NCBI GenBank assembly: GCA_945902955.1
Contig: CAMDNO010000027.1
Location: 1 to 32,749, forward strand
Direction: 5' to 3'
Origin: Porphyromonas cangingivalis
Lineage (GTDB): Bacteria; Bacteroidota; Bacteroidia; Bacteroidales; Paludibacteraceae
DNA length: 32,749 bases
Positions within the stretch are counted from its first letter, which is position 1. The number at the start of each line of letters is the position of its first letter. The position numbers and the translations under genes are program-made. The notes beneath the pieces were generated by a model. That model did not search any database, had not been told where the DNA came from, and worked only from the letters and a program-made list of their open reading frames with translations. Below are positions 3,739 through 31,642 of the stretch, one piece after another.

Positions 3739-3765
3739 GACACTTAGCAAGGCGAAAACCCCTAA
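3739..3765 (-). promoter_or_regulatory. Shared bipartite leader element, site A
   Basis: Minus strand TTAGGGGTTTT, 8 bases, then TAAGTGTC. It lies 88 bases upstream of the start at 3651. It is one of five near-identical elements in the window (see findings) and could be an alternative-sigma promoter or an operator. Confidence 0.6.
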
Positions 3766-3820
3766 AAGAAATTTTGAAAATTTGAAAATTCATTAATTTG
3801 AAAATTCTATTCAGCAATAT

Positions 3821-3828
3821 CAAACTTA
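3821..3828 (-). promoter_or_regulatory. Possible -7 box upstream of the CBM/FN3 protein gene
   Basis: Minus strand TAAGTTTG matches TAnnTTTG. It lies just past the stop of the acetylesterase gene and about 170 bases from the start at 3651. No -33 element is found at the normal distance, so it may be chance in AT-rich DNA. Confidence 0.3.
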
Positions 3829-3836
3829 TCATTTAC

Positions 3837-4550
3837 TTACCGCAGGTATTTTCTCAACTCTGGAATTTTTGTACTTACACTATCCACCGCCATTTTCGCC
3901 ACTGCTCGAGCGCCCTTCTCATTTAAATGCGTATTGTCTTTGCGGTCGTCGACCCACATATACAAAGCTTTGGATGGTTCGTCGCCCATATTTTCTACCA
4001 ACTTCTTGGTAGCGGCATTCAGGTCGATGCAAATTACCTTGTGTTCTTTTGCCACATGACGTACTGCATCTATGTAAGCGCCGTGAGTGTCATTTAGTGT
4101 GCCATCGGCATTGAAAGTGCGGCGTACAATGGAGGTAAACAGCACCGGTATGCCGCCGCTTTTGCGAGTTTCGGTAATGTAGCGGGCAAGGTTAGCTTTG
4201 TAAGTAGTTTCGGGGTCGGTATGGAGTAAGGTATCGGCTTTTTGGTCGTTGTGGCCAAACTGAATAAACACATAATCGCCCTTTTTAATCTGCTCCTGTA
4301 CTTTTGTCCAGCGCCCTTCGGCACGGAAACTTTTGGAGCTTCGGCCATTTTTGGCGCGGTTTTGTATTGTTACGTTCGATTTGAAATACTCCGGCAGCAT
4401 CATTCCCCAACCTCTTTCGGCAGGATGATCGCTCGGGGTGGTTTTATTGGCCATGGTGGAATCGCCAATGGTAAAAATGGTTATTTGCTTTTGTTTGTGC
4501 GAAAACGACAGCAGAAACAGAACTGAAATAAGAAGTGTGAGTTTTTTCAT
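3837..4550 (-). CDS. Rhamnogalacturonan acetylesterase-like SGNH hydrolase (CE12)
   Basis: A 237-residue SGNH/GDSL hydrolase of the rhamnogalacturonan acetylesterase type, which removes O-acetyl groups from the galacturonate/rhamnose backbone of pectin. All four SGNH blocks are visible: Gly-Asp-Ser-Thr with the nucleophile Ser31, the oxyanion Gly69 in Asn-Gly-Arg-Ser-Ser, Asn101 in Gly-His-Asn-Asp, and the Asp205/His208 pair in DNTHLN. The N-terminus MKKLTLLISVLFLLSFS is a signal peptide without a lipobox. Its length suits a single-domain CE12 enzyme. There is no T9SS tail, so it is probably periplasmic, acting on imported oligosaccharides. It follows the beta-helix gene by 108 bases that hold a hairpin. 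Family assignment is confident; the exact substrate is inferred from the family. Confidence 0.88.
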   Translation of the reverse strand: MKKLTLLISVLFLLSFSHKQKQITIFTIGDSTMANKTTPSDHPAERGWGMMLPEYFKSNVTIQNRAKNGRSSKSFRAEGRWTKVQEQIKKGDYVFIQFGHNDQKADTLLHTDPETTYKANLARYITETRKSGGIPVLFTSIVRRTFNADGTLNDTHGAYIDAVRHVAKEHKVICIDLNAATKKLVENMGDEPSKALYMWVDDRKDNTHLNEKGARAVAKMAVDSVSTKIPELRKYLR

Positions 4551-4567
4551 GTTTGATATTTAAAATA

Positions 4568-4598
4568 GTGAGGGCTTCACTTAGAGTGAAACCCTCAC
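4568..4598 (-). other. Strong hairpin in the gap before the acetylesterase gene
   Basis: Arms 4568-4581 and 4585-4598 form a 14-bp stem with one wobble pair and a three-base loop. On the minus strand it is followed by ACTATTTTAAAT, a weak U-tract. It is only 18 bases from the ATG at 4550. It could terminate the beta-helix transcript, act as an attenuator, or protect mRNA ends. Confidence 0.5.
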
Positions 4599-4623
4599 CT
4601 TTAAAAAGTTGAAATTATCTACG

Positions 4624-4655
4624 TCTTCGAACCCCCTTTGGGGGGCAGGGGGGCT
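4624..4655. repeat. CCCC-AAA-GGGG intergenic repeat fragment
   Basis: The sequence is rich in alternating C and G runs (ccccctttggggggcagggggg) and lies just after the beta-helix gene stop. It resembles the core of the dispersed repeat at 7564 and 24900. No gene is visible in it. Confidence 0.4.
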
Positions 4656-4658
4656 AAC

Positions 4659-7286: not shown

Positions 7287-7441
7287 TTTTCTTTTTTTTT
7301 TGTGAGTTGGTTTTTTGGTTTTTACCACCTCAAGTTAACAATTAATAATTTATTTATAATGTGTAAAAAACTCCATTGGAAAAATCAATATTGATTTGAA
7401 AATCTATTGGTTACAGTAATTTTTTAACAAAATGACAACGA

Positions 7442-7449
7442 CAAAAATA
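7442..7449 (-). promoter_or_regulatory. Candidate -7 box for the beta-helix gene
   Basis: Minus strand TATTTTTG matches TAnnTTTG, about 155 bases upstream of the ATG at 7286. The -33 partner is not convincing. Confidence 0.35.
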
Positions 7450-7563
7450 GAGCTAATTAGATAATAAGAACGCTACAAAAAAATACAAATAGGGGTGTAT
7501 AATAAAAACAATGTCTAAAATGTTACCTCATCCCCATCCCCTCTCCTTGAGGCGAGTGGAGCT

Positions 7564-7624
7564 AATTTTGATTATTCCCGCCCCAAGCCCCTAAAGGGGA
7601 TGTAAATTAGTATTGTCTCTGAAA
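7564..7624. repeat. Dispersed intergenic repeat, copy 1
   Basis: The first 36 bases (7564-7599) are identical to 24900-24935, and the similarity continues for about 25 more. The core is GCCCCAAGCCCCTAAAGGGG. Both copies lie just downstream of a minus-strand gene. It is probably a non-coding dispersed repeat of this genome. Confidence 0.75.
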
Positions 7625-7664: not shown

Positions 7665-9932
7665 TTACTTTTTAAAAAACTTTGTCGAAATAGACTCTCC
7701 ATTCGAAAAGCTGCTAATTGCTAAATAATTACCCGCTGTTAGATTTTCTAATTTTATGGAGTCGCTTATTTTTTGAATTCGTTGCGTTTTTACAAGTACG
7801 CCCACTGAATTGTAGATTTTAACAGTCGCATTTTCAGCATGTACGTTTTTTAGTATTAATTCATTATTTGTCGATTGAAAATACACTTTCGAGTTATTCT
7901 GAAAATCACTATTTTGATAAACAGCCGAATTAACCGCACTCGTTAATGCAACTGTTCCACCATTGGGTACAGCATCGTAATAAATGTAGCTCATGCCATT
8001 TTCGACAACCGATTCTATGTTTTTACTCGTCAATCCTTGCATAACATTTACAGTTGTCCATGTGGCAGGCACTTTTGTTTTTAATGTAAGTGGAAATTTA
8101 AAGATATTAGCATCCAAATTGTGAGTAACCGAAATAGCAATTCTGGTAGCAGTGGAGTCCAATGTAATGATTGTCGCATTTTGTTTTTCGCGGAAATAAC
8201 GGGTTACATCGGCAAAAGAACCTATCCACAAATCGGCTCGTTTGCTAGCCACATACTCAAAATGTTTTGTAAAAGCGGTGTCGGGCATCAAATTTATAGC
8301 TGTACCAACACCATGAGCCAATAAAATCAGCCATTGTTTGTTGGCAATGGTATTGTCAATATATTTATTCATTTCGGTAGAATATGCTGGTCTGGATAGC
8401 GAAGCAAAATAATTGACTGACATTTTTAGTCTAAACCATTCGGTATCGGTAGGGCTAAGCGAATTGTAACCGCTTCCACCGTTGCGTGCGGCATAATGCG
8501 ATTGTTTAATCAGCACATCAGCGGCATCGGTATTCACAACTAATGGATTTGCCATGGTGATAATATCCTGTCCTGGAAATTTGTTTCTAAAAATAATTTG
8601 ATTACCAATAATTTCATTATACAACGAGTCTTTACCAGCTTGCGTATTGGTTATTGTTGAAAAACTGATATGCGATTTGGAATGATTGAAAATATCGAAG
8701 CGTCCATCAGCCAAAATACCGTTCCAAAAACCCCAAGTGGAAGTTATCCAATTAGCTGCAAATCCCAGAGAGCCAACTAAATTCAGTCGTTTGAATTCGT
8801 TGTTGAAAAATATGCCCGAAACAGTGGAGGCATCATCGAAAGTAAAAGTATAAACAGCTGGCTTATTATCTTTAGCTGCACAGATAGTGGTAAAATTTGT
8901 ATAATCACCAGTTGGCACCTCGCAGTTTACGAGTCGTACAAACTGATTCGAAGCAATACTTTGTCGGGTGTTGGCATCGACAGCTGCACCCGCCAAAATA
9001 TCCAAAGTAACCTTTCCCGTTGTTGTAGGAACAATATTTACAGTATAGGTTTTGGCATCTACTACTGTAAAGTTGTTCAAAGTGCCATTTGTAACAACCA
9101 AATCTGAAAGCGTAAATTCAGCTACATCTGCATTGAAAGTAATGGTTACAGGTATAGAATTAGTTTTGATATAGATATTATCGGGAGTTGTAGATCTAAT
9201 TATTGGAACAAGACATTCCTTTTTTACAAGCAGCTCGAAATCATCCAAATACAACCAGTTGTTAAGAGTCACTGGAGGTGTAGCTGTATTATATAGGGCA
9301 TTAATACCAACACCAATGTAAGCTGTGGAATAGTCGAGTGAAAGTTTCGCTGCTCTTTCGGCAGGTATATCAAAGGTTACTGTGTATTTAGTCCAAGTGC
9401 TCCCACCTGTTAAAGGAATTGACTTCGTAAAAGAAGCACTTCCCGTATCACCATTTTTATCGGCAATATAAGCATATACTGTATTTACCGCATTTCCTAC
9501 TTTAGCCCAAAAAGAAAAGGTATAAACAATGTTGTTCGAAAGCGATAAACGTTGCTGAGCACTCATTTGTGTCCAGTCAAATCCCATGGTTCCATTTGCT
9601 CCTGCAATTTTCAAAAACAGAAAAGTGGCACTACCATTGGCACCACCTGGGGATAGATATGCTTGAAGACTAGAAGAAGGAACGGTTTGGCGTTTTACCC
9701 ACAAACCATCTGTTATGGCAATTGATGTTGGCGCAATTGGTTGCGTAATATCGGTTTTAGTAGCACTATTGCTTGCTACTTTGTACAAATAATTAACAGC
9801 AGGTGTTCCCACTGGCACCGTAAAAGTAGAAGATGTAGCTTCGAAACCAGGATTTTGGATTAAATTCGTTTGAGCTATTAGTAAGCTCGAAAAAATTGAA
9901 ATGCAAAGCATTAATGTAAATGTTTTTTTCAT
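7665..9932 (-). CDS. Polysaccharide deacetylase-like (CE4-like) T9SS cargo with CBM and Ig-like domains, copy 1
   Basis: A 755-residue secreted protein. Signal peptide 1-20 (cut before QTNLIQNPGFE), CBM4/9-like jelly roll about 21-237, bacterial Ig-like domain about 242-336, polysaccharide-deacetylase-like domain about 350-585, a beta region to about 665, and a T9SS sorting domain at the end. In the enzyme domain, Tyr-Thr-Phe-Thr-Phe-Asp366-Asp367 matches the NodB TFDD motif, Asn-His417-Ser-Lys-Ser-His421 matches the metal-binding His-x3-His motif, and Ala-His540-Gly fits the late catalytic His motif. CE4 enzymes use a divalent metal to remove acetyl groups from sugars. The Asp-Asp and both His are intact, so activity is plausible. 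It is a close tandem paralogue of the next gene upstream. The true substrate (O- or N-acetyl) is unknown. Confidence 0.83.
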   Translation of the reverse strand: MKKTFTLMLCISIFSSLLIAQTNLIQNPGFEATSSTFTVPVGTPAVNYLYKVASNSATKTDITQPIAPTSIAITDGLWVKRQTVPSSSLQAYLSPGGANGSATFLFLKIAGANGTMGFDWTQMSAQQRLSLSNNIVYTFSFWAKVGNAVNTVYAYIADKNGDTGSASFTKSIPLTGGSTWTKYTVTFDIPAERAAKLSLDYSTAYIGVGINALYNTATPPVTLNNWLYLDDFELLVKKECLVPIIRSTTPDNIYIKTNSIPVTITFNADVAEFTLSDLVVTNGTLNNFTVVDAKTYTVNIVPTTTGKVTLDILAGAAVDANTRQSIASNQFVRLVNCEVPTGDYTNFTTICAAKDNKPAVYTFTFDDASTVSGIFFNNEFKRLNLVGSLGFAANWITSTWGFWNGILADGRFDIFNHSKSHISFSTITNTQAGKDSLYNEIIGNQIIFRNKFPGQDIITMANPLVVNTDAADVLIKQSHYAARNGGSGYNSLSPTDTEWFRLKMSVNYFASLSRPAYSTEMNKYIDNTIANKQWLILLAHGVGTAINLMPDTAFTKHFEYVASKRADLWIGSFADVTRYFREKQNATIITLDSTATRIAISVTHNLDANIFKFPLTLKTKVPATWTTVNVMQGLTSKNIESVVENGMSYIYYDAVPNGGTVALTSAVNSAVYQNSDFQNNSKVYFQSTNNELILKNVHAENATVKIYNSVGVLVKTQRIQKISDSIKLENLTAGNYLAISSFSNGESISTKFFKK

Positions 9933-10064: not shown

Positions 10065-10092
10065 GAAACTTAACGGAATTAAAAACCCCTAA
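10065..10092 (-). promoter_or_regulatory. Shared bipartite leader element, site B
   Basis: Minus strand TTAGGGGTTTT, 9 bases, then TAAGTTTC. It lies 133 bases upstream of the start at 9932. It is the most divergent of the five copies, with one extra spacer base and T for G in the right half. Confidence 0.5.
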
Positions 10093-10118: not shown

Positions 10119-12398
10119 CTATTCTTTAATAAACTTCATTGAACTATAAACACCATTGGACGTATAACAAACCACCAAGAAATTTCCGGCACATAATCTA
10201 TCCAAATGTATTGTTGCCTCTGCACCCACTACGGTGTGCACTCCGAATGCTTGACCCGCAAAATTGTAAATCTTTACGGTAGCGCCGGTTTCATCTTGTG
10301 CATTTTTTATTAGCAATAATTTGCTCGCTTGTTGATAATAAACCTCTGGCTTACTCAAAGTTGTTTGGGGCATTGCATTTGGCGATGCGGGTGCAAGAAC
10401 TATGCTGCCACCATTGGGCACAGCATCGTAATAAATATACGAAACAGCGTTTTCAATTACTGGTGTTACGGCTTTCACCGTTGCGCCTTGTGTTACAGTT
10501 ATGTTTCTCCAGTTGTCAGGCACTTTTGTTTTCAGGGTAAGTGGGTAGTTGAAAATGGTAGCGTCAAGATTATGAGTAACCGAAATGGCAATTCTATTGC
10601 TGGTAGAATCGAGAGTGAGTACAAAGGCATTTTGTTTTTCGCGGAAATATTTTGTAACATCTCCTAAAGTAGCAATCCACAAATCGTTGCGTTTGGCTGC
10701 CACATATTCAAAATGCTTTGTAAAGGCAGTATCTTGCATAGCATTGGCGCCTGTACCAATACCGTGAGTGAGTAAAATGAGCCACTGTTTATTGGCAATT
10801 ATATTGTCGATATGTCTGTTAATTTCGGATGAATATGCTGCCCGGCTTTGCGAACTGAAATAGTTAGCATACATTTTCAGTTTAAACCACTCATTTTCAG
10901 TTGGACTAAGCGAATTGTAACCGCTCGTACCATTGCGCGCAGCGTAATGACTTTGTTTTATCAGCACATCGGCCGCATCGGTATTCACCACAGCAGGGTT
11001 GGCAATGGAGATTATATCCTGTGTAGGAAATTTGGTACGAAAAACAGTCTGATTACCAATTATTTCGTTGCGAAGCGAATCCTGTCCAATCTGTGTATTA
11101 GTTATAGAAGAGAATTTTACGTGCGTTTTGGAATGATTGATAATATCGAAACGGCCATCGGCTAACAAATTATTCCAGAAATCGTAAGTTGAAGCAGGTG
11201 TTTGGCTGCCGTTTATCCAGTTGGCTACCAATGCCAGCGACCCTACTAAATCGAGGCGTTTGAACTCGTTGTTGAAAAAAGTAGCAGCATTGGTAAAACC
11301 ATCGTCGGAAGTGAACGTGTAAACAGCAGGCTTGTTATCTTTTGCGGCACAAATAGTTGTAAAGTTACTATAATTGCCGGTTGTAATTTCGTTGTTGTAG
11401 AGCCGTACAAATTGGTTGGGTGCCACACTCTGACGATTAGTAGCATCGGTAGCAGCACCGGCATTAATATCAAGCGTTACTTTGCCTGTGGCCGTTGGAA
11501 TTATATTAGCAGTGTAGGTGGAGGCATTTATGGCTGTAAAATTTGCCAAAGTTCCGTTTGTAACTACCATATCGGAAGCTGTAAAACCAGTAACATCGGC
11601 ATTGAAAGTAATTGTTACGGGAATAGGATTGGTTTTGATATACACATTGGCAGGAGTAGTCGAAGTAATGGTTGGCACCAGACTTTCCGATTTTGCAAGC
11701 AATTCAAAATCATCTACATAGAGCCAATTATTTTGTGTTACGGGAGGTGTAGCTGTGGTGTAAAGTGCATTTATACCCACGCCAATGTATGCAGTAGTAT
11801 AGTCGAGCGTAGGTTTTGTGGCTCTTTCGGCCGGAATATCAAAAGTTACAGTATATTTTGTCCAAGCTGTGCCACCAGTGAGTGGAATTGCTTTTGTAAA
11901 TGTGGCACTGCCCGTATCGCCCGTTTTATCGGCCAAATAAGCATAAGCAGTTGTAACAGCACTTCCTACTTTTGCCCAAAACGAGAAAGTATAAACGGAC
12001 GTATTTGAAAGCGGCACACGCTGTTGTGCGCTCATCTTTGTCCAGTCGAAACCAGGAGTATTGTTGTTACCTGCAATTTTCAAAAAAAGATATGTAGCGC
12101 TTCCATTAGCTCCACCAACTGCCAAATAAGCTAATAAGCTCGACGAAGTAACAGTTTGACGCTTCACCCACAATCCATCTGTTACCGAAATAGAACTTGC
12201 AGTTGGTTGAGTAGTTTCGGTTACGGTAGCAGCATTGCTTGCTACTTTCATCAAATGATTTACAGCGGGAGAACCTACAGGCACTGTAAAAGTTGAAACG
12301 GCAGCTTCGAAACCCGGATTGGTAATTAAATTGGTTTGAGCCGAAAGAATACTTGTCAAAAATAAGATGCTAAGTATCAAAGTAATGTATTTATTCAT
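10119..12398 (-). CDS. Polysaccharide deacetylase-like (CE4-like) T9SS cargo with CBM and Ig-like domains, copy 2
   Basis: A 759-residue paralogue of the gene at 7665-9932 with the same domain order: signal peptide 1-20 (cut before QTNLITNPGFE), CBM4/9-like domain, Ig-like domain, deacetylase-like domain, beta region, T9SS sorting domain. Active-site motifs: Tyr-Thr-Phe-Thr-Ser-Asp365-Asp366, Asn-His422-Ser-Lys-Thr-His426, and Thr-His545-Gly. Phe of TFDD is Ser here, but the Asp pair and metal His residues are kept. It has a slightly longer loop (GSQTPASTY, near 397-405) before the His motif than copy 1. The gap to the BNR gene upstream is 95 bases with no leader motif, so it may be co-transcribed with that gene. 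The two copies probably arose by tandem duplication, and a degraded third is at 15424. Confidence 0.83.
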   Translation of the reverse strand: MNKYITLILSILFLTSILSAQTNLITNPGFEAAVSTFTVPVGSPAVNHLMKVASNAATVTETTQPTASSISVTDGLWVKRQTVTSSSLLAYLAVGGANGSATYLFLKIAGNNNTPGFDWTKMSAQQRVPLSNTSVYTFSFWAKVGSAVTTAYAYLADKTGDTGSATFTKAIPLTGGTAWTKYTVTFDIPAERATKPTLDYTTAYIGVGINALYTTATPPVTQNNWLYVDDFELLAKSESLVPTITSTTPANVYIKTNPIPVTITFNADVTGFTASDMVVTNGTLANFTAINASTYTANIIPTATGKVTLDINAGAATDATNRQSVAPNQFVRLYNNEITTGNYSNFTTICAAKDNKPAVYTFTSDDGFTNAATFFNNEFKRLDLVGSLALVANWINGSQTPASTYDFWNNLLADGRFDIINHSKTHVKFSSITNTQIGQDSLRNEIIGNQTVFRTKFPTQDIISIANPAVVNTDAADVLIKQSHYAARNGTSGYNSLSPTENEWFKLKMYANYFSSQSRAAYSSEINRHIDNIIANKQWLILLTHGIGTGANAMQDTAFTKHFEYVAAKRNDLWIATLGDVTKYFREKQNAFVLTLDSTSNRIAISVTHNLDATIFNYPLTLKTKVPDNWRNITVTQGATVKAVTPVIENAVSYIYYDAVPNGGSIVLAPASPNAMPQTTLSKPEVYYQQASKLLLIKNAQDETGATVKIYNFAGQAFGVHTVVGAEATIHLDRLCAGNFLVVCYTSNGVYSSMKFIKE

Positions 12399-12493: not shown

Positions 12494-15151
12494 TTAGTCT
12501 GCTTTCACAACTTTCATCACTTTAGATTTTACTGCGTCATTTATTTTCAAAAGATAAATACCTTTTGCAATGTTTTGTTCTTTGACCAAATTACAGATAC
12601 CACTTTGACCTAATTTAGTATTAGAGATAATTTTACCTGTCAAGTCAATTATTAAAACTTCAGCATTAGGACTAAATTTGTTCAATTCGACATCTTGAGT
12701 TGCACTTAACGAATTGGTTTTCAACTGTAACGAATTCAGCACCCAATTTACATCGGTGCCTCCTCCGTCGGAAAAAGTAAATTCAAGTGAATTGTTATTT
12801 GCCGTTACATCAAATTCAGAAGTAACAAAAGCATTTATAGCCGAAGACACAGATGGCACTGCTACAGCTCCATTCACTTCAATTTTCATCTTGTCATGGG
12901 CATAAGTAGCATCACCTTGTTTAACAGTCACATGATATGATCCATTTTGAACAAAAGCTTTAAAAGTTGCTGGAGATGGACAAAGCATAAAGTCTCTTAA
13001 CTCATCGGTGTTTGCGGTTCCTCTATCGCGAGATAATAATCCTGATAATGATAACCAGCCATAAGAATTGTTAATCAGGGTTGATTCGCTTACTCTAATT
13101 GCACCTGATAAAAGAGGCGAAGTAGTAGTACCAAAATCAAAAGTTGCATTTGTTAGGTAAACAGGTTCTTCTACCAGCACTTTGCAGTTTGCAACATATC
13201 CATTGCTGCAAGTGGCCGAAATTACGGCTAAACCTTTTCCCAGACTGATGATATTGCCATTTGAAACGGTTGCTACATTGTTGTTCGAAGAACTCCAAAT
13301 CACGTTCTTATCTGTTGCGATAAATGGAGTTGAAGTAACATTCAGTTTTCTGCTACTCCCTATATACAATTGAATTGAATCTGCATCAAGCGACACTGTT
13401 TGAATGGGTATGTTGAGTGTTTCAATTTTTATGGAATTCAAAACCCAACTAGGATCTACTCCGCCGTTATCCGACAGTGTAATTTCAAGTAGTTTATTGG
13501 CAACCGTTGTGTTAAACTCACTTTCGATAAAAGCACCTGCATTGGTATTAATATTGGTAGCAACAACGCTTCCATTGGCCGCAATTTGCATATTGTCATG
13601 AGCCGCCGACATGTCGCCTTGTAACACTTTTACTTTATAACTCCCGTTAGGCAAGCTTAATTTGAATGTTTTAGGCGTTGCGCTATATACAAATGATTTT
13701 TTCTCTAATGCTCCAGTTGGTGTTTCTTTAGATTCGATATTGCTAATGTCGGCAAATCCAAAATCATCCTCATACAATTTATTATTGAGTACTTTTATCC
13801 CTTCTAAATTTGTTTCAGAAGTAGCGGCGCCAAAGTCATATTCTCGTGAAGCCGCGTTGTGAAACAATACAGAAGTATTGTAATTGGTATAATAGATGTA
13901 TTTTCCTTTCATCCAAAGCACATCGAAGTACCCAGGCTTATGATTGCGTGGCACAATGGGTCTTACATTAATTAAATCTGGTGATGTATTTTGAGTAATT
14001 GCTAATGAATCCCAGGTTACTCCCGAGTCTTTCGAAGTCCACTTGAATATTTCAAAAACATTGTTCACTGGTTTCGATAAATATACAACAGACGTATTGT
14101 TTGCATCCAATGAAATTCCCCCGGAATAGTTAGGCTCAGGTTCTGTAACACCTACCGGAGTTTGTTCAAACCATTTACCAGCTTTGGTAAGTTCTAAATT
14201 TGTCCATTTCGTGCCATCCCATTTTGCATAATTATACCGGTGATCTGTATTTGATGGAAATGATGCGTAAACGACAACTGGATTTCCTAGCTTATCGATA
14301 GCAATATCCCACACCCAACCCTTACCTGCACTGGCATCATAAACTACTTCTGCCTCGTAGGTATCTAAGTTCAACGCTGTGGCACTTCCAGTAAAATCTT
14401 TGATGTAAGTACCATCAGCTTTGTAGAATTTACCATTTTTATAGCAGGCATAATATACTTTGTTGTATGAATCGCGCGGATGCCCATCGGTAAATGCAAA
14501 GTGGATTGTACCATTTTTATCAGAACAATATTTTATGTAAGGCCTGCCTCCACCGCCTTGGATAAATTGCTGTGTGGTACCAAAGGTTTGACCATTATCA
14601 GTTGAGATAGCTATAGAAGGATGCCAATTTATGTCTCTAAAGAAAACGGCTATCTGATTGCCAATTTTAAATGGATTTGGATAGGTTACATTTGTGCCAA
14701 AAGTATAATCGGTGCCCCAGGAGCTAATGTCTTCAGGATTTGTAGAGATAAACCTGTGCATTGGGCCGCTGGAATGTTTGGAGAAAAATACCACCAAACG
14801 TCCATCATCACGTATGAAAATGGAAGGATTATTGTGGTCATCTATCTGAAGTTTAGCGTAAAGAGTCTTTTTGGTATATACCCCTGTTTTATGGTTATAA
14901 GCGGCCACTTCCATATCCCCACTTTTGGTTACCCACGAGAAATAGGTTTGTTCATTTATTCCTTTGAAGTAAACAGCTCGGGGGTCGCCAAACCAACACC
15001 AAGCACCATCAAGCGTCAGTGTGTCGGCTCTTTGAATAGTATTAACGGCCGAAACACTATTTGCATTTAGCAAATTGAAGAATACATAGATGCATGCAAT
15101 TGCAATTTTAAAATCCATCTGAATCATCTTAAGGCACATTGGCGTTTTCAT
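12494..15151 (-). CDS. BNR-4 beta-propeller protein (PL24/PL25 ulvan lyase-like) with two accessory modules and T9SS sorting domain
   Basis: An 885-residue secreted protein. The signal peptide probably starts at Met12 (MDFKIAIACIYVFF) and is cut after SVSA (35). Residues about 45-430 form a BNR-4 type seven-bladed propeller with Asp-Asp-His106-Asn-Asn-Pro, His126 in SKHSSG and Arg203 in GGGGRPY. From memory, ulvan lyases of PL24/PL25 use a similar pair of His about 20 residues apart plus an Arg and Tyr; this comparison is not tested. Two copies of a beta-sandwich module follow, about 437-577 and 670-812, each with FDFG/YDFG, an NGSY-V-V-QGD segment, AHD, and W-VLNS near the end; similar modules sit on rhamnogalacturonan-active CE12 enzymes. 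A Big_2 Ig domain (about 582-662) separates them, and a T9SS sorting domain ends the protein. It may be a lyase acting on Rha-uronic acid linkages, or a binding protein. Confidence 0.75.
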   Translation of the reverse strand: MKTPMCLKMIQMDFKIAIACIYVFFNLLNANSVSAVNTIQRADTLTLDGAWCWFGDPRAVYFKGINEQTYFSWVTKSGDMEVAAYNHKTGVYTKKTLYAKLQIDDHNNPSIFIRDDGRLVVFFSKHSSGPMHRFISTNPEDISSWGTDYTFGTNVTYPNPFKIGNQIAVFFRDINWHPSIAISTDNGQTFGTTQQFIQGGGGRPYIKYCSDKNGTIHFAFTDGHPRDSYNKVYYACYKNGKFYKADGTYIKDFTGSATALNLDTYEAEVVYDASAGKGWVWDIAIDKLGNPVVVYASFPSNTDHRYNYAKWDGTKWTNLELTKAGKWFEQTPVGVTEPEPNYSGGISLDANNTSVVYLSKPVNNVFEIFKWTSKDSGVTWDSLAITQNTSPDLINVRPIVPRNHKPGYFDVLWMKGKYIYYTNYNTSVLFHNAASREYDFGAATSETNLEGIKVLNNKLYEDDFGFADISNIESKETPTGALEKKSFVYSATPKTFKLSLPNGSYKVKVLQGDMSAAHDNMQIAANGSVVATNINTNAGAFIESEFNTTVANKLLEITLSDNGGVDPSWVLNSIKIETLNIPIQTVSLDADSIQLYIGSSRKLNVTSTPFIATDKNVIWSSSNNNVATVSNGNIISLGKGLAVISATCSNGYVANCKVLVEEPVYLTNATFDFGTTTSPLLSGAIRVSESTLINNSYGWLSLSGLLSRDRGTANTDELRDFMLCPSPATFKAFVQNGSYHVTVKQGDATYAHDKMKIEVNGAVAVPSVSSAINAFVTSEFDVTANNNSLEFTFSDGGGTDVNWVLNSLQLKTNSLSATQDVELNKFSPNAEVLIIDLTGKIISNTKLGQSGICNLVKEQNIAKGIYLLKINDAVKSKVMKVVKAD

Positions 15152-15361: not shown

Positions 15362-15388
15362 GACACCTACACACAAAAAAACCCTTAA
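15362..15388 (-). promoter_or_regulatory. Shared bipartite leader element, site C
   Basis: Minus strand TTAAGGGTTTT, 8 bases, then TAGGTGTC. It lies 211 bases upstream of the start at 15151, between that gene and the deacetylase relic. Confidence 0.6.
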
Positions 15389-15759: not shown

Positions 15760-15802
15760 AAACAAAAATTCCCCATACAAAAATGGAATTCTGTATGGGG
15801 AA
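15760..15802 (-). terminator. Rho-independent terminator of the FISUMP operon
   Basis: A perfect 11-bp stem (TTCCCCATACA at 15769-15779, TGTATGGGGAA at 15792-15802) with a 12-base loop, followed on the minus strand by TTTTTGTTTT. It lies 43 bases after the stop at 15845, so it ends the two-gene unit that starts at 17283. Confidence 0.85.
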
Positions 15803-16776: not shown

Positions 16777-17283
16777 TTATTGTTTGTTGAATTTGAAAGT
16801 TTCTCCGCTCACACGTAATAGGTAAACACCTTTATTTAAGCCAGATACATTGATAGTTTCGATATTTGATTGCACATCTATTTGCATCACTTTAGAGCCG
16901 GCAATGCTAAAAACAGTAGCTTGTGTACCTTCCGAAGCTCCTTTTAGGTAGAGATTAGCCGAAGTTACTGTCGGGTACAATTTGATAGAGGTATTGCCCA
17001 ATCGAAGGTCTTTCAATCCGGTAGTTACATCGCCAAAAGTAAAATTCATGGTATTGGCAAGCACGAAAGACTCACCAGCAACGCCAGCGGGACTAACTAC
17101 TGTCATTACTTCGTTTACGAATGTTAGCTTGGCTACATTGCTATACGACAAAGGTGTTGTGGAACCAGAGTTCGATTTTACAATCAAACCCTGTTGCGCC
17201 TGAACAGTCGGCGAAATACTTGCAGCCAGCACAATGGCAAACAAATAGCGCGACGTCAGCGAGAGTAATTTGTTTTTGTTCAT
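16777..17283 (-). CDS. Small T9SS cargo protein of unknown function
   Basis: I chose the ATG at 17283 (MNKNKLLSLTSRYLFAIVL), 12 codons inside the longest frame (17319), because it begins the signal peptide, cleaved after VQA. The mature protein is only about 140 residues. A short strand module (GLIVKSNSG, then PLSYSNVAKLTF) resembles the N-terminal module of the neighbouring FISUMP proteins. The rest, from about LRLGNTSIKLYP, is a T9SS type A sorting domain with VFSIAGSKVMQ and GLNKGVYLLRVSGE. It is thus little more than an anchor module plus export signal. It is the first gene of a two-gene unit with the FISUMP gene and has the shared leader element 90 bases upstream. Function unknown; it could be a surface partner of the FISUMP protein. 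Confidence 0.75.
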   Translation of the reverse strand: MNKNKLLSLTSRYLFAIVLAASISPTVQAQQGLIVKSNSGSTTPLSYSNVAKLTFVNEVMTVVSPAGVAGESFVLANTMNFTFGDVTTGLKDLRLGNTSIKLYPTVTSANLYLKGASEGTQATVFSIAGSKVMQIDVQSNIETINVSGLNKGVYLLRVSGETFKFNKQ

Positions 17284-17372
17284 AAAAATGTTGTTTTTTC
17301 GAATTGGTGTGTGAGTCACACTTAATTCAAGGTTAAGAAAACTGGGATAATTAAAAAACCGATATACTAATT

Positions 17373-17399
17373 GACACCTACTTCGGGGAAAACCCTTAG
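17373..17399 (-). promoter_or_regulatory. Shared bipartite leader element, site D
   Basis: Minus strand CTAAGGGTTTT, 8 bases, then TAGGTGTC. It lies 90 bases upstream of the start at 17283 and 38 bases past the stop at 17437. Here the flanks ACCTAC and GTAGGT could also form a short hairpin. Confidence 0.6.
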
Positions 17400-25095: not shown

Positions 25096-25764
25096 TCAAG
25101 GAATTTCGGGATGATTTTTATCTTTGGGATAATACTCCGGATATTTATCAAAAATATGAATTACGCCACCATTCGAAGGTATTATGTTAGTTTCCAACGA
25201 ATAACATTTCAAAATATCCCGTTCGTAAATAGTTCCGGCGTAGTCAACCAATACCTTGTATTGGTTCAAGTTCTGATTGAAAACCGGGTCGAGACACAGA
25301 AAACGCACTTTAGGAGGCAATGGACTTGACTGATTGAGGTAAGTTGTAGGCATGGTTTTTACAATTTGAGGCGAGAGCGTTAAATCGGTTGATAGATAAA
25401 CTCCTTCCACAATAAACTGTCCCAACCATTGTTGCAAATCGTATTTGGACATGCCCTGAAATGTAATTTTTTTGTTTGTAAAATAGCGATTACAACCCGT
25501 ATTATTTAAAAGTAAATAAGTACGTCCGGGTTTCTCGAATTCGGCTTTGAACTCTGCTTTGTCCACCGCATAGGCAAACGAAGTCATATCTACCGAACTG
25601 CGTTTTTTTATAAATTCGTACGCAGTTATTCCGATATGCGGATCTAATTTGGCATAATCATATTGATAATCAGTCTGCAAAGGCAAACCCATTAATTCGC
25701 AGGACGACATTATGGCAATACTTGAAAATAAAATCAGGTATATATAAATTCTACTGGTTTTCAT
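25096..25764 (-). CDS. Fasciclin-like lipoprotein of the transport operon
   Basis: A 222-residue lipoprotein: signal MKTSRIYIYLILFSSIAIMSSC with the lipid Cys at 22. The mature part is compact and ends with SNGGVIHIFDKYPEYYPKD. The GGVIH-I segment and the preceding 'YLLLNNTGCNRYF' resemble, weakly, the H2 and H1 regions of fasciclin domains, which commonly occur in lipoproteins encoded next to SusD. It is the last gene of the transport operon, 25 bases after the SusD gene. It probably sits at the outer membrane surface and helps in glycan capture or in holding the SusCD complex. The fasciclin call is tentative. Confidence 0.6.
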   Translation of the reverse strand: MKTSRIYIYLILFSSIAIMSSCELMGLPLQTDYQYDYAKLDPHIGITAYEFIKKRSSVDMTSFAYAVDKAEFKAEFEKPGRTYLLLNNTGCNRYFTNKKITFQGMSKYDLQQWLGQFIVEGVYLSTDLTLSPQIVKTMPTTYLNQSSPLPPKVRFLCLDPVFNQNLNQYKVLVDYAGTIYERDILKCYSLETNIIPSNGGVIHIFDKYPEYYPKDKNHPEIP

Positions 25765-25789: not shown

Positions 25790-27439
25790 TTAAGGATTTG
25801 TAATAACCAAGGTACTATCCAAATTTGGATTCGTATTGAGGTTGCGATAGTAAACTGGCCAATAAAGCTGTTTCTCGTCGGTATATTTTGTTAATTTTAC
25901 CGTAGTCGAAATGGTGAGCGCATAATCGTAATAATCATTCATTATGGCCATTGCCTTACCGGTACGCATCAAGTCGAACCATCTTTTGCCTTCGCCAAGC
26001 AACTCGATGCTGCGTTCTTTGAGGATATCCATTTCCAACTGATTACTACTTCCATTTTCGCCATCGGCTACATAGCCCGATACAGGACGAGTTTGATCAA
26101 CCGGGCCGTCGATAACACTGAAGCCAGTGGCATCTGTTAATTTGGCTGCTGTATTTGTTAAACCCGCTCTATCGCGCACTTTTTTCAATTCGGCCACCGC
26201 AGCAGTAATGTTTCCCAATTTATTATATGCCTCGGCACGCATCAACAAAATATCGGCATATCGGTACATAACTACCGGGAAATTATACGATTGCATTACC
26301 GTGGTAGCTTTCATGCCCGCTGTGGCTTTGAGTAACACTTTTGAAGTGCTTGTTGCAATAACATAACCCGTAGAGGAAGTGCCACCGGCAACTGAATCCA
26401 AAGTAGCCGCTTTTCGTTTGTCGCCTTTGTAATAAGCATCGAAAATCCAACCTTTGAGGCGTTTGTTGTAAAACGAAGGTAATTTTGCAACATCATAGCC
26501 TGCCGAACCAGTATAAAACCAGCTGCTGTAAGTGTAGGCAGGCCCAGTTGGAGCCATAAAATTCCATACGGCATAATTAATGGTATTATTTTGATTAATA
26601 TAATCCCATTGCAACACCCAGATATTTTCATTTTGACCAATGGCATCCGTAGGTGTAAAAAGTTTTGAATAATCGGCCGTGGCATTGAGCGAAATAGCAA
26701 CATTGTTCATAAAAAAATTCAAAGGCACACTATAATCCAAAGCTTTTTGATATTGGTGCATCCACATGCTATAGTCGGTAGCCAAAGCAGCCAAAGCACC
26801 TACCGAGAAAAAACCTTTGTTCACTACACGAGATCCACCTTGAGTACCATCTTTATCAGCTTTTACAAAAGCCGAATCAATATCTCTACCTACTTGTGCC
26901 AATAACAAAGCTTGTGAACTTTTGAATGGATATTCAATTTCGTCGACCTTAAGTGTAGGCTTAGTTACCAATGGAGCATCACCCCAAATACGGGCAATAT
27001 TGTAGTAAGCAAACGCACGCAGAAAATAGGCTTCGGCAATATAATGGTTCGACAATACCTTATCGGCAATAGGTGTTAGTGGGATATAGTGCAAACTATA
27101 ATTGGCTACACTAATAATATTATACCAACCTACCCAGTTCGAAGGAGTCATTTGATTGGTTAATTGATTAAAAGTAGCTGCCAACGGACTATTGGAGGCG
27201 GAACTTGTATTGAGGGGCGCCCAATTTTCGGAACGTCCTTCGAACCACTGCGAATAGCCATAATTGTAAGTTGTTTGGATATAGCCGTAAGCCGAATTTA
27301 AGGCCGTACGAACATCTTTTTCGGTTTTCCAAAATTTATCGGTAGTTAAATCGCTTACCGGTTTTACATCTAAAAATTCGTCCATGCAAGAGCTGAATAA
27401 AAATACACTTGCCAAGAATACTATACTAATTTTTTTCAT
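25790..27439 (-). CDS. SusD/RagB-family glycan-binding lipoprotein
   Basis: A 549-residue lipoprotein: signal MKKISIVFLASVFLFSSC with the lipid Cys at 18, then the typical SusD opening DEFLDVKPVSDLTTDKFWKTEKDV. TPR-like helices include 'AEAYFLRAFAYYNIARIWGDAPLV' in part and 'ILLMRAEAYNKLGN'. The RagB/SusD C-terminal region has 'EMDILKERSIELLGEGKRWFDLMR'. SusD proteins form the lid on the SusC transporter and bind oligosaccharides at the cell surface. The length and order directly after the SusC gene (36-base gap) are standard. Specificity cannot be read from the sequence. Confidence 0.96.
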   Translation of the reverse strand: MKKISIVFLASVFLFSSCMDEFLDVKPVSDLTTDKFWKTEKDVRTALNSAYGYIQTTYNYGYSQWFEGRSENWAPLNTSSASNSPLAATFNQLTNQMTPSNWVGWYNIISVANYSLHYIPLTPIADKVLSNHYIAEAYFLRAFAYYNIARIWGDAPLVTKPTLKVDEIEYPFKSSQALLLAQVGRDIDSAFVKADKDGTQGGSRVVNKGFFSVGALAALATDYSMWMHQYQKALDYSVPLNFFMNNVAISLNATADYSKLFTPTDAIGQNENIWVLQWDYINQNNTINYAVWNFMAPTGPAYTYSSWFYTGSAGYDVAKLPSFYNKRLKGWIFDAYYKGDKRKAATLDSVAGGTSSTGYVIATSTSKVLLKATAGMKATTVMQSYNFPVVMYRYADILLMRAEAYNKLGNITAAVAELKKVRDRAGLTNTAAKLTDATGFSVIDGPVDQTRPVSGYVADGENGSSNQLEMDILKERSIELLGEGKRWFDLMRTGKAMAIMNDYYDYALTISTTVKLTKYTDEKQLYWPVYYRNLNTNPNLDSTLVITNP

Positions 27440-27475: not shown

Positions 27476-30400
27476 TTAGAAGTTAAGATTTAATCCAAAA
27501 AGAATACTCTTCGAACGTGGATACACGTTTACATCCATCCCATAATTGTAACCACTGGCAGCCATTTCGGGGTCGAACATCGAATAGTTTGTCCACGTAA
27601 AATAATCCTGAAGCATACCATACAAATTCAACGATTTGATGTGTAATGGTTTAAGCCATTTTGCGGGCAAATCGTATCCGAATTTCAAGTTTTTCAGACG
27701 GATATACGACCCATCTTCTATCCACAAACTACTTGTTTGACGGGTATTTTCAACCTTGGTGTCGTTTAGTATTGGATATTTAGCATTGTCGCCAGGCGCT
27801 ACCCACGATTGAGCTACAATACGCGGATCTCCACGTGTGATAGACGATAGTGTCCAAGCATTATTACTTGCCACCGAACGTTTGTAAATATCTCCTCCGA
27901 ACGAAAAACTGAAAAATGCAGATAACGAAAATCCCTCGTAAGTGATACTATTGTTGAAACCTCCAGTAACTATTGGGGCACCATTACCTATTATTTGGCG
28001 GTCATTATCATCAATCACACCATCTTTGTTTATATCCTCCCAGTTTACATCGCCTCCGGCAAATGCTTTACCAGTAGTGGAGCCATACAGTTTTTGTTGA
28101 CGCTGACCAGTGTAAGTCTCTCCATTCAATTGATATTCTTGAAAAACACCACTTTCGGTAAATATTGGCGTTAATTGATTCCAATTCATATCGTAATTAT
28201 TGGATTCGTTATACGAAAATATATTCAATGCTTTGTAGCCAAACATGGTTCCCAGAGCGTATCCTTTGTCGATAATATACATATCGTTCGAATACAAACG
28301 ACCGCCTGGGGGCACCGACGAAATCATATTTTCGTTAAACGACAATGTAACTCCAGTTTTCCATTGCAACTTTTTTGTTTTGATATTTACAGTATTAATA
28401 GCTAATTCGTAGCCTTCGTTGTCTACATTTCCAATATTGCGATAAACGGTACTAAAACCGGTTGTTTCGGGAATATTGATGCGGAATAACACATCCGACG
28501 TTTGCTTTTTGTAATAATCGGCTACAATGTTAATACGCGAGTTGAACAAATTTAAGTCAAGCCCAAAGTTCAATTGTTGCGTTGTTTCCCAACTTAAATC
28601 TTTGTTTTCCATTTGGCTCGGAAAAAATCCAGGATTGAGCGCATACACATTAAGGCCATACAATCCTTGCCAAGGGAAGTTAGAAGCACCCTGATTTCCG
28701 GTTTTACCATAACTCAAACGAAACTTAGCATCGTCGACTACGGTTTTGGAAAAGTTCATAAATTTTTCGTCCGAAAAGCGCCAACCAATCGATGCCGAAG
28801 GGAAAGTACCATATCTATTATTAATTCCAAATCGCGACGAGCCATCACGACGAATATTCGCATTGAACAAATAACGACCCATATAGCTATAAGTAACACG
28901 ACCAAACATAGCCGCCAAAGCATTGCCAGTTTCTAAAGAGCGAGTTGACGATTTTGCCTGGTAGTACGAATACGAAATAGGCAAATTATCCGACACATTA
29001 CCTGTTACATTCAAAGTGGTACTTTTAACATTCGATTTTTGATAACTCAAGCCCGCCATAGCGCTGAAGGAATGTTTCCCTATGGTTTTAGCATAAGACA
29101 AAACGTTATCATTTGTCCACGAAAGCGTGGTAATAGTTTGATTGGTAGAATTTCGCAGAAAAGATGCGTCCAAAATGGCCGGATTAAAATCGCTGTACAA
29201 ACTATTGCTTAAAATGGCCGAAATGCTGGGTTTAAATTTAAAATCTTTTAGAAAAGTAAATTCTAAAAATTGATTCATATTTACATCGTAAATATCGGTA
29301 TCGGCAGCCCCCAGCATGGTTTCGGCCATAGGGTTCGTTCGTCCATTAATTACCGGCGAAAAAGAGCCATCCAATTCATAAATAGGATAGTTGGCAGGGC
29401 GCGAAAGCAGCTGGCCTCTCGAATTACCTGATGCAGTTCGGCGATCGGTTTTTGCCAACGAAATACGACTGCCGATAGTCAATGCTTTTGAAACAATATA
29501 ATCCACATTCGACCGCGCTGTCAATTGCTTGTTGTAGGTGTTTATTTGAATTCCCTGATCATTATTATAACCCGCTCCTACATAATATTTCAAGGTTTTA
29601 CTCGCTCCAGCAATACTAAAATCAAGTTTATGGGTGGGTGCATTCCTAAATATTAAATCCTGAATATAATTATCCTGCATAAAAATAGGATTATAAGTAT
29701 CCACATTTTCGACAGAAGTGGAGGGTAGCGCACCAATAGCATAATTACGCATATTGGCAAAATCAATGCCTTGTTGACGATTCATAGCGGGAATTTTGTG
29801 CCCGATATTCGAATTGCGAAACGAGTAATTAATGGCAATTTTTGGCGTCCCTTCTTTTCCTTGAATAGTGGTAATAAGCATAACACCATTTGCCGATTTG
29901 GAACCATAAATTGAGGCCGAAGCAGCATCTTTCAGTACCTCTATCGAAGCAATATCATTCGGGTTCAAATTGTCGATTGAATTAACTTCCATACCATCAA
30001 CAATATACAGCGGGCTATTTGCCCCATCTTCGGTAGAGAGCGACGAAGCACCACGAATCATTACCGACGAACCAGCGCCTGGCTCCGACGACCCTTGAAT
30101 TAACAACCCAGCCACTTTTCCTTGCATGGCTTCCAACACGGTCGATGTTTTGCTACCATTAATATCCTCGCTACTTACAGAGGTGATTGCACCCGTCAAG
30201 TCGCGCTTTTTCATGCTGCCATACCCTACAACTACCAATTCTTCTAAATTCTGATTGGTAGTAGTTAAGGTGATTTTAAAAACCGTTTTTTTCTGAATAG
30301 GCACACTTTGTTTGTCGAATCCGATATACGAAATCTCAAGTGTTTTGGCACTTTCGGGAACATTCAAAGTGAAATCGCCATTTATATTGGTAACAGTACC

Positions 30401-30583
30401 TATGTTTTTAAGCTCTTTTACCATGACAGTTGCTCCAATAATTGCCTCTTTTCCATCGGTTACATTCCCTGTAATTTTTATGGTTTGCGCCTGAGCCTGC
30501 GCAAAAAAAGAAATAAGGATGGAAGCAATGAGTATTCGAAGCCCCCAATTTTTGATTTTAATCTGATACATACGTATTAGCAT
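27476..30583 (-). CDS. SusC/RagA-family TonB-dependent glycan transporter
   Basis: About 1035 residues. A signal peptide (start at 30583, or the Met four codons in, MYQIKIKN, at 30571) is cut near AQAQ|TIK. Next come a carboxypeptidase D-like regulatory domain (ITGNVTDGKEAIIGATVMVK..., about 36-115), the SusC-type junction EELVVVGYGSMKKRDLTGAI, the plug domain with MIRGASSL and PLYIVDGMEV, and a 22-strand-type barrel ending in the aromatic SILFGLNLNF. It imports oligosaccharides across the outer membrane using TonB energy together with the SusD partner downstream. No extra N-terminal STN domain is seen, so sensing through an ECF-sigma/anti-sigma partner by that route is unlikely. It sits second in the operon, after the lipoprotein gene (21-base gap). 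Confidence 0.96.
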   Translation of the reverse strand: MLIRMYQIKIKNWGLRILIASILISFFAQAQAQTIKITGNVTDGKEAIIGATVMVKELKNIGTVTNINGDFTLNVPESAKTLEISYIGFDKQSVPIQKKTVFKITLTTTNQNLEELVVVGYGSMKKRDLTGAITSVSSEDINGSKTSTVLEAMQGKVAGLLIQGSSEPGAGSSVMIRGASSLSTEDGANSPLYIVDGMEVNSIDNLNPNDIASIEVLKDAASASIYGSKSANGVMLITTIQGKEGTPKIAINYSFRNSNIGHKIPAMNRQQGIDFANMRNYAIGALPSTSVENVDTYNPIFMQDNYIQDLIFRNAPTHKLDFSIAGASKTLKYYVGAGYNNDQGIQINTYNKQLTARSNVDYIVSKALTIGSRISLAKTDRRTASGNSRGQLLSRPANYPIYELDGSFSPVINGRTNPMAETMLGAADTDIYDVNMNQFLEFTFLKDFKFKPSISAILSNSLYSDFNPAILDASFLRNSTNQTITTLSWTNDNVLSYAKTIGKHSFSAMAGLSYQKSNVKSTTLNVTGNVSDNLPISYSYYQAKSSTRSLETGNALAAMFGRVTYSYMGRYLFNANIRRDGSSRFGINNRYGTFPSASIGWRFSDEKFMNFSKTVVDDAKFRLSYGKTGNQGASNFPWQGLYGLNVYALNPGFFPSQMENKDLSWETTQQLNFGLDLNLFNSRINIVADYYKKQTSDVLFRINIPETTGFSTVYRNIGNVDNEGYELAINTVNIKTKKLQWKTGVTLSFNENMISSVPPGGRLYSNDMYIIDKGYALGTMFGYKALNIFSYNESNNYDMNWNQLTPIFTESGVFQEYQLNGETYTGQRQQKLYGSTTGKAFAGGDVNWEDINKDGVIDDNDRQIIGNGAPIVTGGFNNSITYEGFSLSAFFSFSFGGDIYKRSVASNNAWTLSSITRGDPRIVAQSWVAPGDNAKYPILNDTKVENTRQTSSLWIEDGSYIRLKNLKFGYDLPAKWLKPLHIKSLNLYGMLQDYFTWTNYSMFDPEMAASGYNYGMDVNVYPRSKSILFGLNLNF

Positions 30584-30604
30584 TGTATTTTTATAAGGTT
30601 ATTA

Positions 30605-31579
30605 TTACTTTCTACTTTTTTTGCGAATAATAGGAATTTTGATGGCTGGGTCGTAATAAGTCGTTGTAGAGTCTAAACTTTTAGATTTTACAATTCTCAA
30701 ACGGTAATACTTAAAGGTTGTACCGCTGTAAGAGATTGATCGAAATAAAATGCCTGGCGAAAATTTATCCCCATTGCCCGTAATTGGGTCGTAGGATACA
30801 GGTACCTGATAGCTTGAATACACCAAAGTAGAATCGTAAAGCGGACCATCGTTATCACTCAGCGACTTGTTAAGATCTTTATCATCGCGCGAACTTTCTA
30901 AAGGGCCTTCGGGATTACAAGGGCCATAAATGCTGGCCTTGTAAGAAGTTTGATCGTTTAAGCTAAGCGAAATTTTGAGTTTTGTTGAATCGGCTGTTGT
31001 AGGAATATAAATAATTGCATCGTAAGGAGTACTCCATCTACCATTGTTGGACCCAATAAAAAAGGATGCACTTACAGGAGCACCTTTGACATTGTTAATA
31101 ACATTCGAAATGGTAGCCGTAAAAATCTGACTATCAGTATAAACATATTTTTTTAAACGCACAATTTTATACGTCGATGTTTTTCCGCTTTCGGCAATAA
31201 CTTTCAGCGAAGCGGTATCTTTCAAATTCATTGCCGTAAAGCTTGCCGGTTCGCAATGCGCGCCAATACCAAGTATTACTTTGAAAACCAATGCGCTATC
31301 AATAACATGGCTTGGCAAATCGATGTAAATTGTTTTATTGGCTTCGTCGATGCACGATTTCGTTCCGTAATCAGAAACTTTGGTACTTGGCACTGCCACA
31401 AAGTCCAAAACAACATCGTTATAAACATTTGGTGCACTTGGAACTCTAAATTCCAACACATTTCTCGCGTTATACGGTGGTCGCTGCGAGAGAATTTCGT
31501 CCATTGTAAGCTCCGGGTGGCAGCTATTAAATGCTACAATAAGTGAGATAAATCCCACAAATAGAAGTGTTTTTTTCAT
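30605..31579 (-). CDS. Surface lipoprotein (DUF5018-like) leading the SusC operon
   Basis: A 324-residue lipoprotein: signal MKKTLLFVGFISLIVAFNSC with the lipid Cys at 20, then HPELTMDEIL. Two beta-rich halves follow: about 40-150 with a strand pattern ending 'TYKIVRLKKYVY', typical of DUF5018-type Ig-like repeats that precede surface glycan-binding proteins, and a second half about 155-315 ending 'KYYRLRIVKS'. The C-terminus is basic (IPIIRKKSRK). It is the first gene of the transport operon, with the shared leader element just 37 bases upstream. Its likely role is glycan binding at the surface, replacing SusE/SusF. The family assignment is from memory and moderate. Confidence 0.65.
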   Translation of the reverse strand: MKKTLLFVGFISLIVAFNSCHPELTMDEILSQRPPYNARNVLEFRVPSAPNVYNDVVLDFVAVPSTKVSDYGTKSCIDEANKTIYIDLPSHVIDSALVFKVILGIGAHCEPASFTAMNLKDTASLKVIAESGKTSTYKIVRLKKYVYTDSQIFTATISNVINNVKGAPVSASFFIGSNNGRWSTPYDAIIYIPTTADSTKLKISLSLNDQTSYKASIYGPCNPEGPLESSRDDKDLNKSLSDNDGPLYDSTLVYSSYQVPVSYDPITGNGDKFSPGILFRSISYSGTTFKYYRLRIVKSKSLDSTTTYYDPAIKIPIIRKKSRK

Positions 31580-31615
31580 TTTTAGTAAATTATTTAAAGT
31601 GAAATACGGAATATA

Positions 31616-31642
31616 GACACATAGGCCATTTAAAACCCCTAA
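31616..31642 (-). promoter_or_regulatory. Shared bipartite leader element, site E
   Basis: Minus strand TTAGGGGTTTT, 8 bases, then TATGTGTC. It lies 37 bases upstream of the start at 31579 of the SusC operon. The short distance to the start fits a promoter, with transcription starting just below 31616. Confidence 0.6.

Follow-up and report, generated by a model that had tools for sequence, protein, structure and literature searches.

What is the role of a short two-box sequence that recurs five times within a single glycan locus? The question is raised by a stretch of 32,749 nucleotides from Porphyromonas cangingivalis (contig CAMDNO010000027.1 of assembly GCA_945902955.1), referred to below as the window, which is the whole of one contig (C27) in an assembly of 4,522,156 bases and 292 contigs that is 87% complete. 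An earlier note on this DNA had read the five copies as possible promoters of an extracytoplasmic function (ECF) sigma factor. Our analysis suggests, with a probability of roughly 0.86, that they are promoters of one FecI/FecR-type (TIGR02985) ECF sigma factor encoded in another locus, which would fire its own operon and, in trans, the genes of the window.

In the minus-strand sense the consensus of the element is TTARGGGTTTT-N8-TANGTGTC, with a 9-base spacer in one site, and the five sites read TTAGGGGTTTT-CGCCTTGC-TAAGTGTC, TTAGGGGTTTT-TAATTCCGT-TAAGTTTC, TTAAGGGTTTT-TTTGTGTG-TAGGTGTC, CTAAGGGTTTT-CCCCGAAG-TAGGTGTC and TTAGGGGTTTT-AAATGGCC-TATGTGTC. Element 1 (3739..3765) has a -35-like AGGGGTTTT at 3755-3763 and a -10-like GTGTC at 3739-3743, upstream of the Big_12/FN3 gene 826-3693. 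The weaker element 2 (10065..10092) has AGGGGTTTT at 10082-10090, GTTTC at 10065-10069 and the 9-base spacer, and lies 133 bases before the gene 7665-9932. Element 3 (15362..15388), with AAGGGTTTT at 15378-15386 and GTGTC at 15362-15366, stands 211 bases before the BNR_4 gene 12494-15151, and element 4 (17373..17399), with AAGGGTTTT at 17389-17397 and GTGTC at 17373-17377, stands upstream of 16777-17319, a gene for a cargo protein of the type IX secretion system (T9SS). Element 5 (31616..31642), a strong site, has AGGGGTTTT at 31632-31640 and GTGTC at 31616-31620, 37 bases before 30605-31579. All five lie on the minus strand with spacers of 8 bases in four sites and 9 in one, as the earlier note had described them, and the window sequence bears out that each is oriented with its gene. 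The distance from TARGGG to GTGTC is 15 bases in four of the five sites and 16 in the other, which is within the usual -35 to -10 range of ECF promoters, and the -10 side proved to be longer than first noted, with GTGTCTA in 10 of the 13 sites of the window and its congeners. Two short boxes at near-fixed spacing, upstream of genes and in their orientation, are the make-up of an ECF promoter regulon; the distance from the element to the predicted start codon varies from 37 to 211 bases.

The element is rare. The strict pattern TANGGGTTTT-N8-TANGTGTC occurs four times in the window and never in 100 dinucleotide shuffles, and TANGGGTTTT-N7-10-TANGTGTC, searched over the whole genome, has four matches, all in the window contig, with none for the reversed pattern. 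When up to three mismatches were allowed in the same genome, 57 matches were found (4 at 0, 0 at 1, 3 at 2 and 50 at 3) against 93 for the reversed control, and because such near-matches are no commoner than the control there are no convincing sites beyond the window. The three two-mismatch sites were rejected as regulon members, two of them lying inside open reading frames (ORFs) and one antisense between two ORFs. A matrix built from nine sites of two congeners gives its highest scores in the window to the four 8-base sites, at 27.0-32.9 bits, while the next unrelated place scores 6.8 bits and the best in 30 Markov windows 18.6; element 2 scores 29.9 bits once a 9-base spacer is allowed. This test is not fully independent, because the nine sites were themselves found with the window-derived pattern.

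Support for the promoter reading comes from outside the window, where the element recurs at the genes of ECF sigma factors. An exact copy lies between an ECF gene and a FecR gene in two congeners, G178 (contig C9, locus L048) and G166 (contig C235, L053), and in a genome of another genus, G078 (contig C23, L054). The three ECF proteins match TIGR02985 with 142-155 bits (cut-off 126.4), and their FecR partners in G178 and G166, encoded next to them, carry both PF04773 and PF16344 (FecR and FecR_C). The region reads ECF, element, FecR, SusC, SusD, GH78 alpha-L-rhamnosidase and GH88 hydrolase in both of these congeners. ECF relatives were also gathered by protein similarity alone, giving 51 loci (20 from the genus, 30 from 393 genomes of the order, and L054). 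The pattern [AG]GGGT-N14/15-GTGTC[TA] was present within 150 bases past the ECF stop codon in 14 of them, or in 11 of 48 when the three already known from the pattern are set aside, so that in all of these the region of the ECF gene itself carries the promoter element. Thirteen carriers have a spacing of N14 and one has N15; the remaining spacings between 8 and 23 gave no match, and neither the other strand nor 200 shuffles yielded any. The carriers span the family of the window and six other families, and the element is found at 14 of 27 loci whose ECF is at least 36% identical to that of G178 and at none of the 24 below this value.

These observations also bear on the alternative that the earlier note had offered, namely an operator bound by an activator of the glycan locus, of hybrid two-component or AraC type. 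Such regulators are common at glycan loci (PMC11501099, cited here, like the other sources below, from excerpts), a partial AraC-type binding-domain gene lies at 3-419 of the window, and the half-boxes TANGGGT and TANGTGT resemble a loose direct repeat with members 18 bases apart. An operator would, however, hardly be expected to recur in the ECF-FecR gaps of several families on the coding strand only, and the spacing of the element is fixed to within one base as in a promoter, which makes this explanation improbable. Among genes for regulators of these two classes, only the fragment at 3-419 was seen, no profile search having been aimed at them at other loci.

Conservation of the element was followed in the family, the order and the genus. 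Among 300 genomes of the family, including the window's own, the pattern occurs in five (four copies in the own genome, five in G166, four in G178 and one each in G078 and G213), with a single match in all for the reversed control. The G213 copy was discarded as a regulon site since it lies inside an ORF. Five of the 393 genomes of the order, again including the own, have a match, against two control matches; that of G585 is an ECF-FecR gap, whereas those of G404 and G463 (antisense inside SusC-like genes) and of G455 (antisense between ORFs) were rejected. Within 48 genomes of the genus, to which the exact-element count is limited, the SusC of the window has counterparts of 89% identity in G178 and 83% in G166, the next among the matches listed being 42% identical. 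Element and SusC (83-100% identity) occur together in 3 of the 48, one of which is the window's own genome, and apart in none (Fisher p 5.8e-5). Other SusC homologues have no element, either at the 27 genus loci examined or at the Pedobacter and Segetibacter loci (L045, L046).

The positions of individual sites are likewise kept. Element 5 has counterparts before the same SusC run at L047:1731 in G178 and L052:15846 in G166, and element 4 before the same small T9SS cargo gene at L047:15660 and L052:3562; element 1 is kept in G178 (L049:5360), after the GDSL gene. For element 3 there is a site in G166 at L052:1594, after a Fib_succ gene and before a gene matching 7665-9932/10119-12398, which was used as a positional counterpart only and left out of the footprint figures. 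These figures come from two window-G166 pairs (elements 4 and 5) of the eight pairs compared, as window-G178 flanks are identical at 17-24 of 25 positions and say little. In the two pairs the 25-base flanks match at 10-13 upstream and 9-10 downstream positions (36-52% identity) and the spacers at 2-3 of 8, while core and spacing are unchanged, although the identity of the core is partly built in because the exact pattern served to find the sites. The presence of exact sites before the same genes in the congeners is, as judged from the sequences compared, not a product of the search pattern. With two mismatches allowed, matches in nine other genomes were about as frequent as in the control (G166 9 against 11, G178 6 against 4, G180 2 against 5).

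The earlier note had held that matches scattered at random with respect to genes and not conserved in related species would speak against a promoter; examined by sequence, the matches gave no such picture and the ECF reading stands. The idea that the co-regulated set is confined to the locus did not survive, as the set of the congeners also takes in a remote ECF-FecR-SusCD-GH78-GH88 region. The same comparisons bear on whether the sequence is a transcribed leader (RNA) element or a spread repeat rather than a promoter. The elements do lie in 5' regions and in gene orientation, but spacer and flanks are unrelated between sites, the distance to the predicted start codon varies, there are no exact copies elsewhere in the own genome, and the element is found at ECF genes in other families; this explanation is very hard to credit.

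Two further observations from G166 belong here. A one-mismatch copy of the element at L131 (G166:C2:33206), outside the known loci, could mark an extra regulon member, and an ORF of 126 residues at L052:8612-8992 lies within the SusC run, with no counterpart there in the ORF lists of the window or of G178.

On a tree of the ECF proteins the element falls mostly in two related clades, in 5 of 10 and 7 of 9 rows, with Shimodaira-Hasegawa-like approximate likelihood ratio test (SH-aLRT) values of 99 and 98. In the first clade, to which the ECF of G178 and G166 belongs, four of the five carriers have GTGTCT; in the second all seven have GTGTCA. The 9-base spacer of element 2 recurs at the ECF locus of G585 (L134/L180). 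In G180, whose ECF is 48% identical, the ECF-FecR gap holds a version with CTTGTC and two mismatches, which counts only for its place since two-mismatch matches in that genome are no commoner than in the control (2 against 5). The look-alikes of L093 and L133 read TTTGGTGGTA...GTGTCTA. A different -35-like box, TTGGTGGTA, was observed after the ECF gene in L093 and L133 (with GTGTCTA) and in L147 (without GTGTC), and perhaps represents a drifted promoter code in sister ECFs. A sister signature, TAAGGGTT-N13-GTGTCATA, searched in the 48 genus genomes with at most one mismatch, had eight matches against four in the control. Five were exact, one per genome, and four of these are ECF-FecR gaps already known from the protein search; the three one-mismatch matches have no ECF beside them. 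The fifth exact copy, at L190 (G216:C110:16749), has neither ECF nor FecR detected within 1.5 kb and is a possible trans target.

Several observations weigh against the assignment of the five elements to a TIGR02985 ECF of another locus. The search that found the counterpart sites of the congeners used a window-derived pattern. Mapped on the ECF tree, presence of the element needs nine changes, against a mean of 12.4 in shuffles of which 13 of 500 are as low, so that the distribution is clustered and not clean; two carriers (L139, L142) fall outside both main clades, and half of the ten rows in the clade of the G178 ECF fail the strict pattern, L092, L093 and L133 having look-alikes and L135 and L137 nothing. 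In the latter two the longest ORF starting near the ECF end has 79 and 258 residues, shorter than FecR. The STN signalling domain is weak in the SusC of the ECF locus in G178 (0.012) and G166 (0.078), both below the curated cut-off of Pfam. Three of the five genes led by an element also have a single TAnnTTTG box upstream, though not a complete -33/-7 promoter. In the 87%-complete assembly of the window no orthologue was found of the ECF, its SusC or its GH78 (best matches 33%, 32% and 31% identical), and the element is absent from the flanks, taken to at most 1.5 kb, of all 10 TIGR02985 matches of that assembly, two of which score above the cut-off.

The last point leads to a variant in which the elements are ECF promoters, but are read here by an ECF that is not the orthologue of that in G178 and G166, or are leftovers of a cognate ECF that was lost. 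The absence of ECF, SusC and GH78 orthologues from the own assembly fits it, as does the drifted element 2 (GTTTC, 9-base spacer). Sites in decay would, however, not be expected to fit the consensus exactly as four of the five do, the own TIGR02985 matches without a nearby element (0 of 10) argue against a different ECF, and about 13% of the genome is missing from the assembly, which weakens the case for loss. We regard this variant as unlikely. In the G178 and G166 genomes the candidate cognate ECF is present together with its putative targets. The three missing genes occupy a single stretch of about 11 kb in G178, short enough to fall in the 13% gap, though real loss may also have occurred. 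Synteny could not decide between gap and loss, as other ORFs of the G166 contig have no counterpart in the G178 stretches beside the ECF region.

Under the preferred assignment to a TIGR02985 ECF encoded elsewhere, TTARGGGTTTT would be the -35 box and (TAN)GTGTC(TA) the -10 box, and transcripts would start about 6-10 bases past GTGTC. The signal would be a glycan that binds the signalling SusC of the ECF locus; the glycan-bound SusC would alter FecR and the ECF would be set free, by analogy with described FecR-type systems (PMC3878776, PMC11501099). The free ECF would transcribe its own FecR-SusC-SusD-GH78-GH88 genes and, in trans, the SusC-SusD run, the BNR_4 protein and the secreted glycan proteins of the window. 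The SusC of the ECF locus in congeners probably carries the STN signalling domain; in G078, of another genus, this domain is above the cut-off (3.5e-9). The TonB-linked SusC/RagA receptor of the window (27476..30583, minus strand; TIGR04056) has no STN listed even at E-values up to 10, and for this reason the window locus is read as a target, its SusC being a putative output gene and not a sensor. One sensor would then probably turn on two loci at once, since in the related genomes both the ECF and the sugar sensor are encoded in another glycan locus. As for the substrate, GH78 and GH88 allow the guess of a glycan with rhamnose and unsaturated uronate ends. BNR_4 proteins include rhamnose-uronate lyases, and such an activity would yield the ends that GH88 removes.

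G078 and G585 have a single exact copy each, although a single-copy count per genome would miss looser sites. Tentatively, a single promoter serving the region of the sigma factor itself may be the usual state, and the multiple copies of G178, G166 and the window would reflect the spread of the regulon to a second locus. A broader reading, which we favour by a modest degree, is that related FecI/FecR-type ECFs keep one promoter code, (A/G)GGGT-N14-GTGTC, across families, in several members seemingly for their own FecR-SusC-SusD only. In this genus copies of the code would have come to stand at a second SusCD locus that has no sensor, and at its secreted proteins, such that one signalling SusC would activate two transport systems together with a BNR_4/GH88/GH78 cascade acting on a glycan that contains rhamnose and uronate.

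That ECF sigma factors can control glycan loci is established, and there is one published example of such control from a distance. Of the 50 ECF sigma factors of B. thetaiotaomicron, almost half are encoded within glycan loci, and the usual view is that each such locus brings its own ECF/anti-sigma pair (PMC12596196). The parts seen here (TIGR02985 ECF, FecR with FecR_C, SusC and SusD) are those of the Bacteroides FecI/FecR-type systems, in which the anti-sigma factor couples SusC to the sigma factor (PMC3878776, PMC11501099); unlike there, the promoter also stands at a second SusCD locus, which in the available sequence lacks an ECF of its own. The published distant case, SigW-1 (BT1817) of B. 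thetaiotaomicron, controls part of PUL59 from a distance (PMC12596196), and resembles the arrangement proposed here in that a set of SusCD and enzyme genes is controlled in trans by an ECF encoded elsewhere. SigW-1 is, however, placed in ECF251, and the motif obtained for its promoter did not reach significance (PMC12596196), whereas the present ECF has a FecR-SusCD region of its own and the element shows strong conservation. Promoter prediction for such ECFs was described as challenging without start-site data (PMC3878776), whereas the present promoter can be read from sequence alone. As of 2020 no recognition motif was known for any B. thetaiotaomicron ECF, the EcfO motif being known in B. 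fragilis (PMC7366714). In Flavobacterium psychrophilum, SM6 is an ECF-type promoter class defined from start sites, which has a CGT -10 box and drives several T9SS machinery genes (PMC9723704); the present element has GTGTC and stands before glycan genes and T9SS cargo. Primary sigma promoters of the Bacteroidota, with -33 TTTG and -7 TAnnTTTG (PMC7366714), are also bipartite, but differ in box sequences and spacing. The present promoter and two-locus regulon were not found in the open-licence literature searched, as far as the excerpts go, and the predicted motifs of the ECF classification were not part of the comparison. We class the case as a probable ECF promoter regulon whose promoter is well defined and which spans two loci. 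Because the promoter is sharp enough to be found from sequence alone, regulons of this ECF group can be listed in uncultured genomes, and the locus makes it possible to test whether one glycan sensor can drive a second transport locus in trans.

The genes followed in the window are all on the minus strand. Element 5 is followed by 30605..31579, the SusC gene, its SusD partner (25790..27439; PF07980, PF14322), 25096-25764, 22807-24699 and two Fib_succ proteins. The first of these genes encodes 324 residues with an N-terminus that is lipoprotein-like by eye, matches no Pfam or NCBIfam family, and has counterparts of 81% identity in G178 and 71% in G166. Element 4 leads the small T9SS cargo gene (16777..17319; PF18962, Por_Secre_tail) and a third Fib_succ protein; element 3 leads the BNR_4 protein with an AGA-YXIM galactose-binding domain (12494..15151; PF15892, PF21254) and one protein with a carbohydrate-binding module (CBM) and Big_12. 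After element 2 come a second CBM/Big_12 protein (7665..9932; PF19078 and PF02018, that is Big_12 and CBM_4_9, with a weak T9SS tail, PF18962, below the cut-off), a DUF6383 protein and a GDSL esterase, and after element 1 the Big_12/FN3 protein (826..3693; PF19078, PF00041).

The lyase-like, beta-helix and acetylesterase genes lack an element of their own, as had been noted earlier, but such genes follow an element that points the same way, and transcription from it may extend into them. For the fucosidase the same claim cannot be judged because the gene begins outside the window, its Pfam match starting at position 161 of 345. A terminator-like hairpin of 15 pairs at 4567-4599, directly before the esterase, speaks against read-through for that gene, and a second one, at 15769-15802, separates the end of the element-4 unit from element 3, although the window has hardly more of these hairpins than shuffles do (16 against 13.8). 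The primary-sigma pattern TTG-N19-22-TAnnTTTG was absent from the 400 bases upstream of 15 genes examined, and a sigma-70 consensus scan was barely above shuffles (70 and 60 found, 59.8 and 54.8 in shuffles).

A few minor observations may be added. The partial gene at 3-419 (minus strand), at the contig end, encodes an AraC-type ligand-binding (cupin) domain and is a possible local regulator; between it and the glycan locus lies an ORF of about 54 residues (526-690, minus strand) starting, by eye, with MKTKKKYVKPRIEIIYLDREIALALES. In the glycan region downstream of the ECF genes of G178 (contig C9, L181:9064-10661) are two adjacent ORFs that we take to resemble a helix-turn-helix and HipA-like pair. 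The window also holds two tandem pairs of paralogues, 7665-9932 with 10119-12398 (69% identical) and 17437-20106 with 20115-22802 (63%), and one ORF of G166 matches both members of the latter pair.

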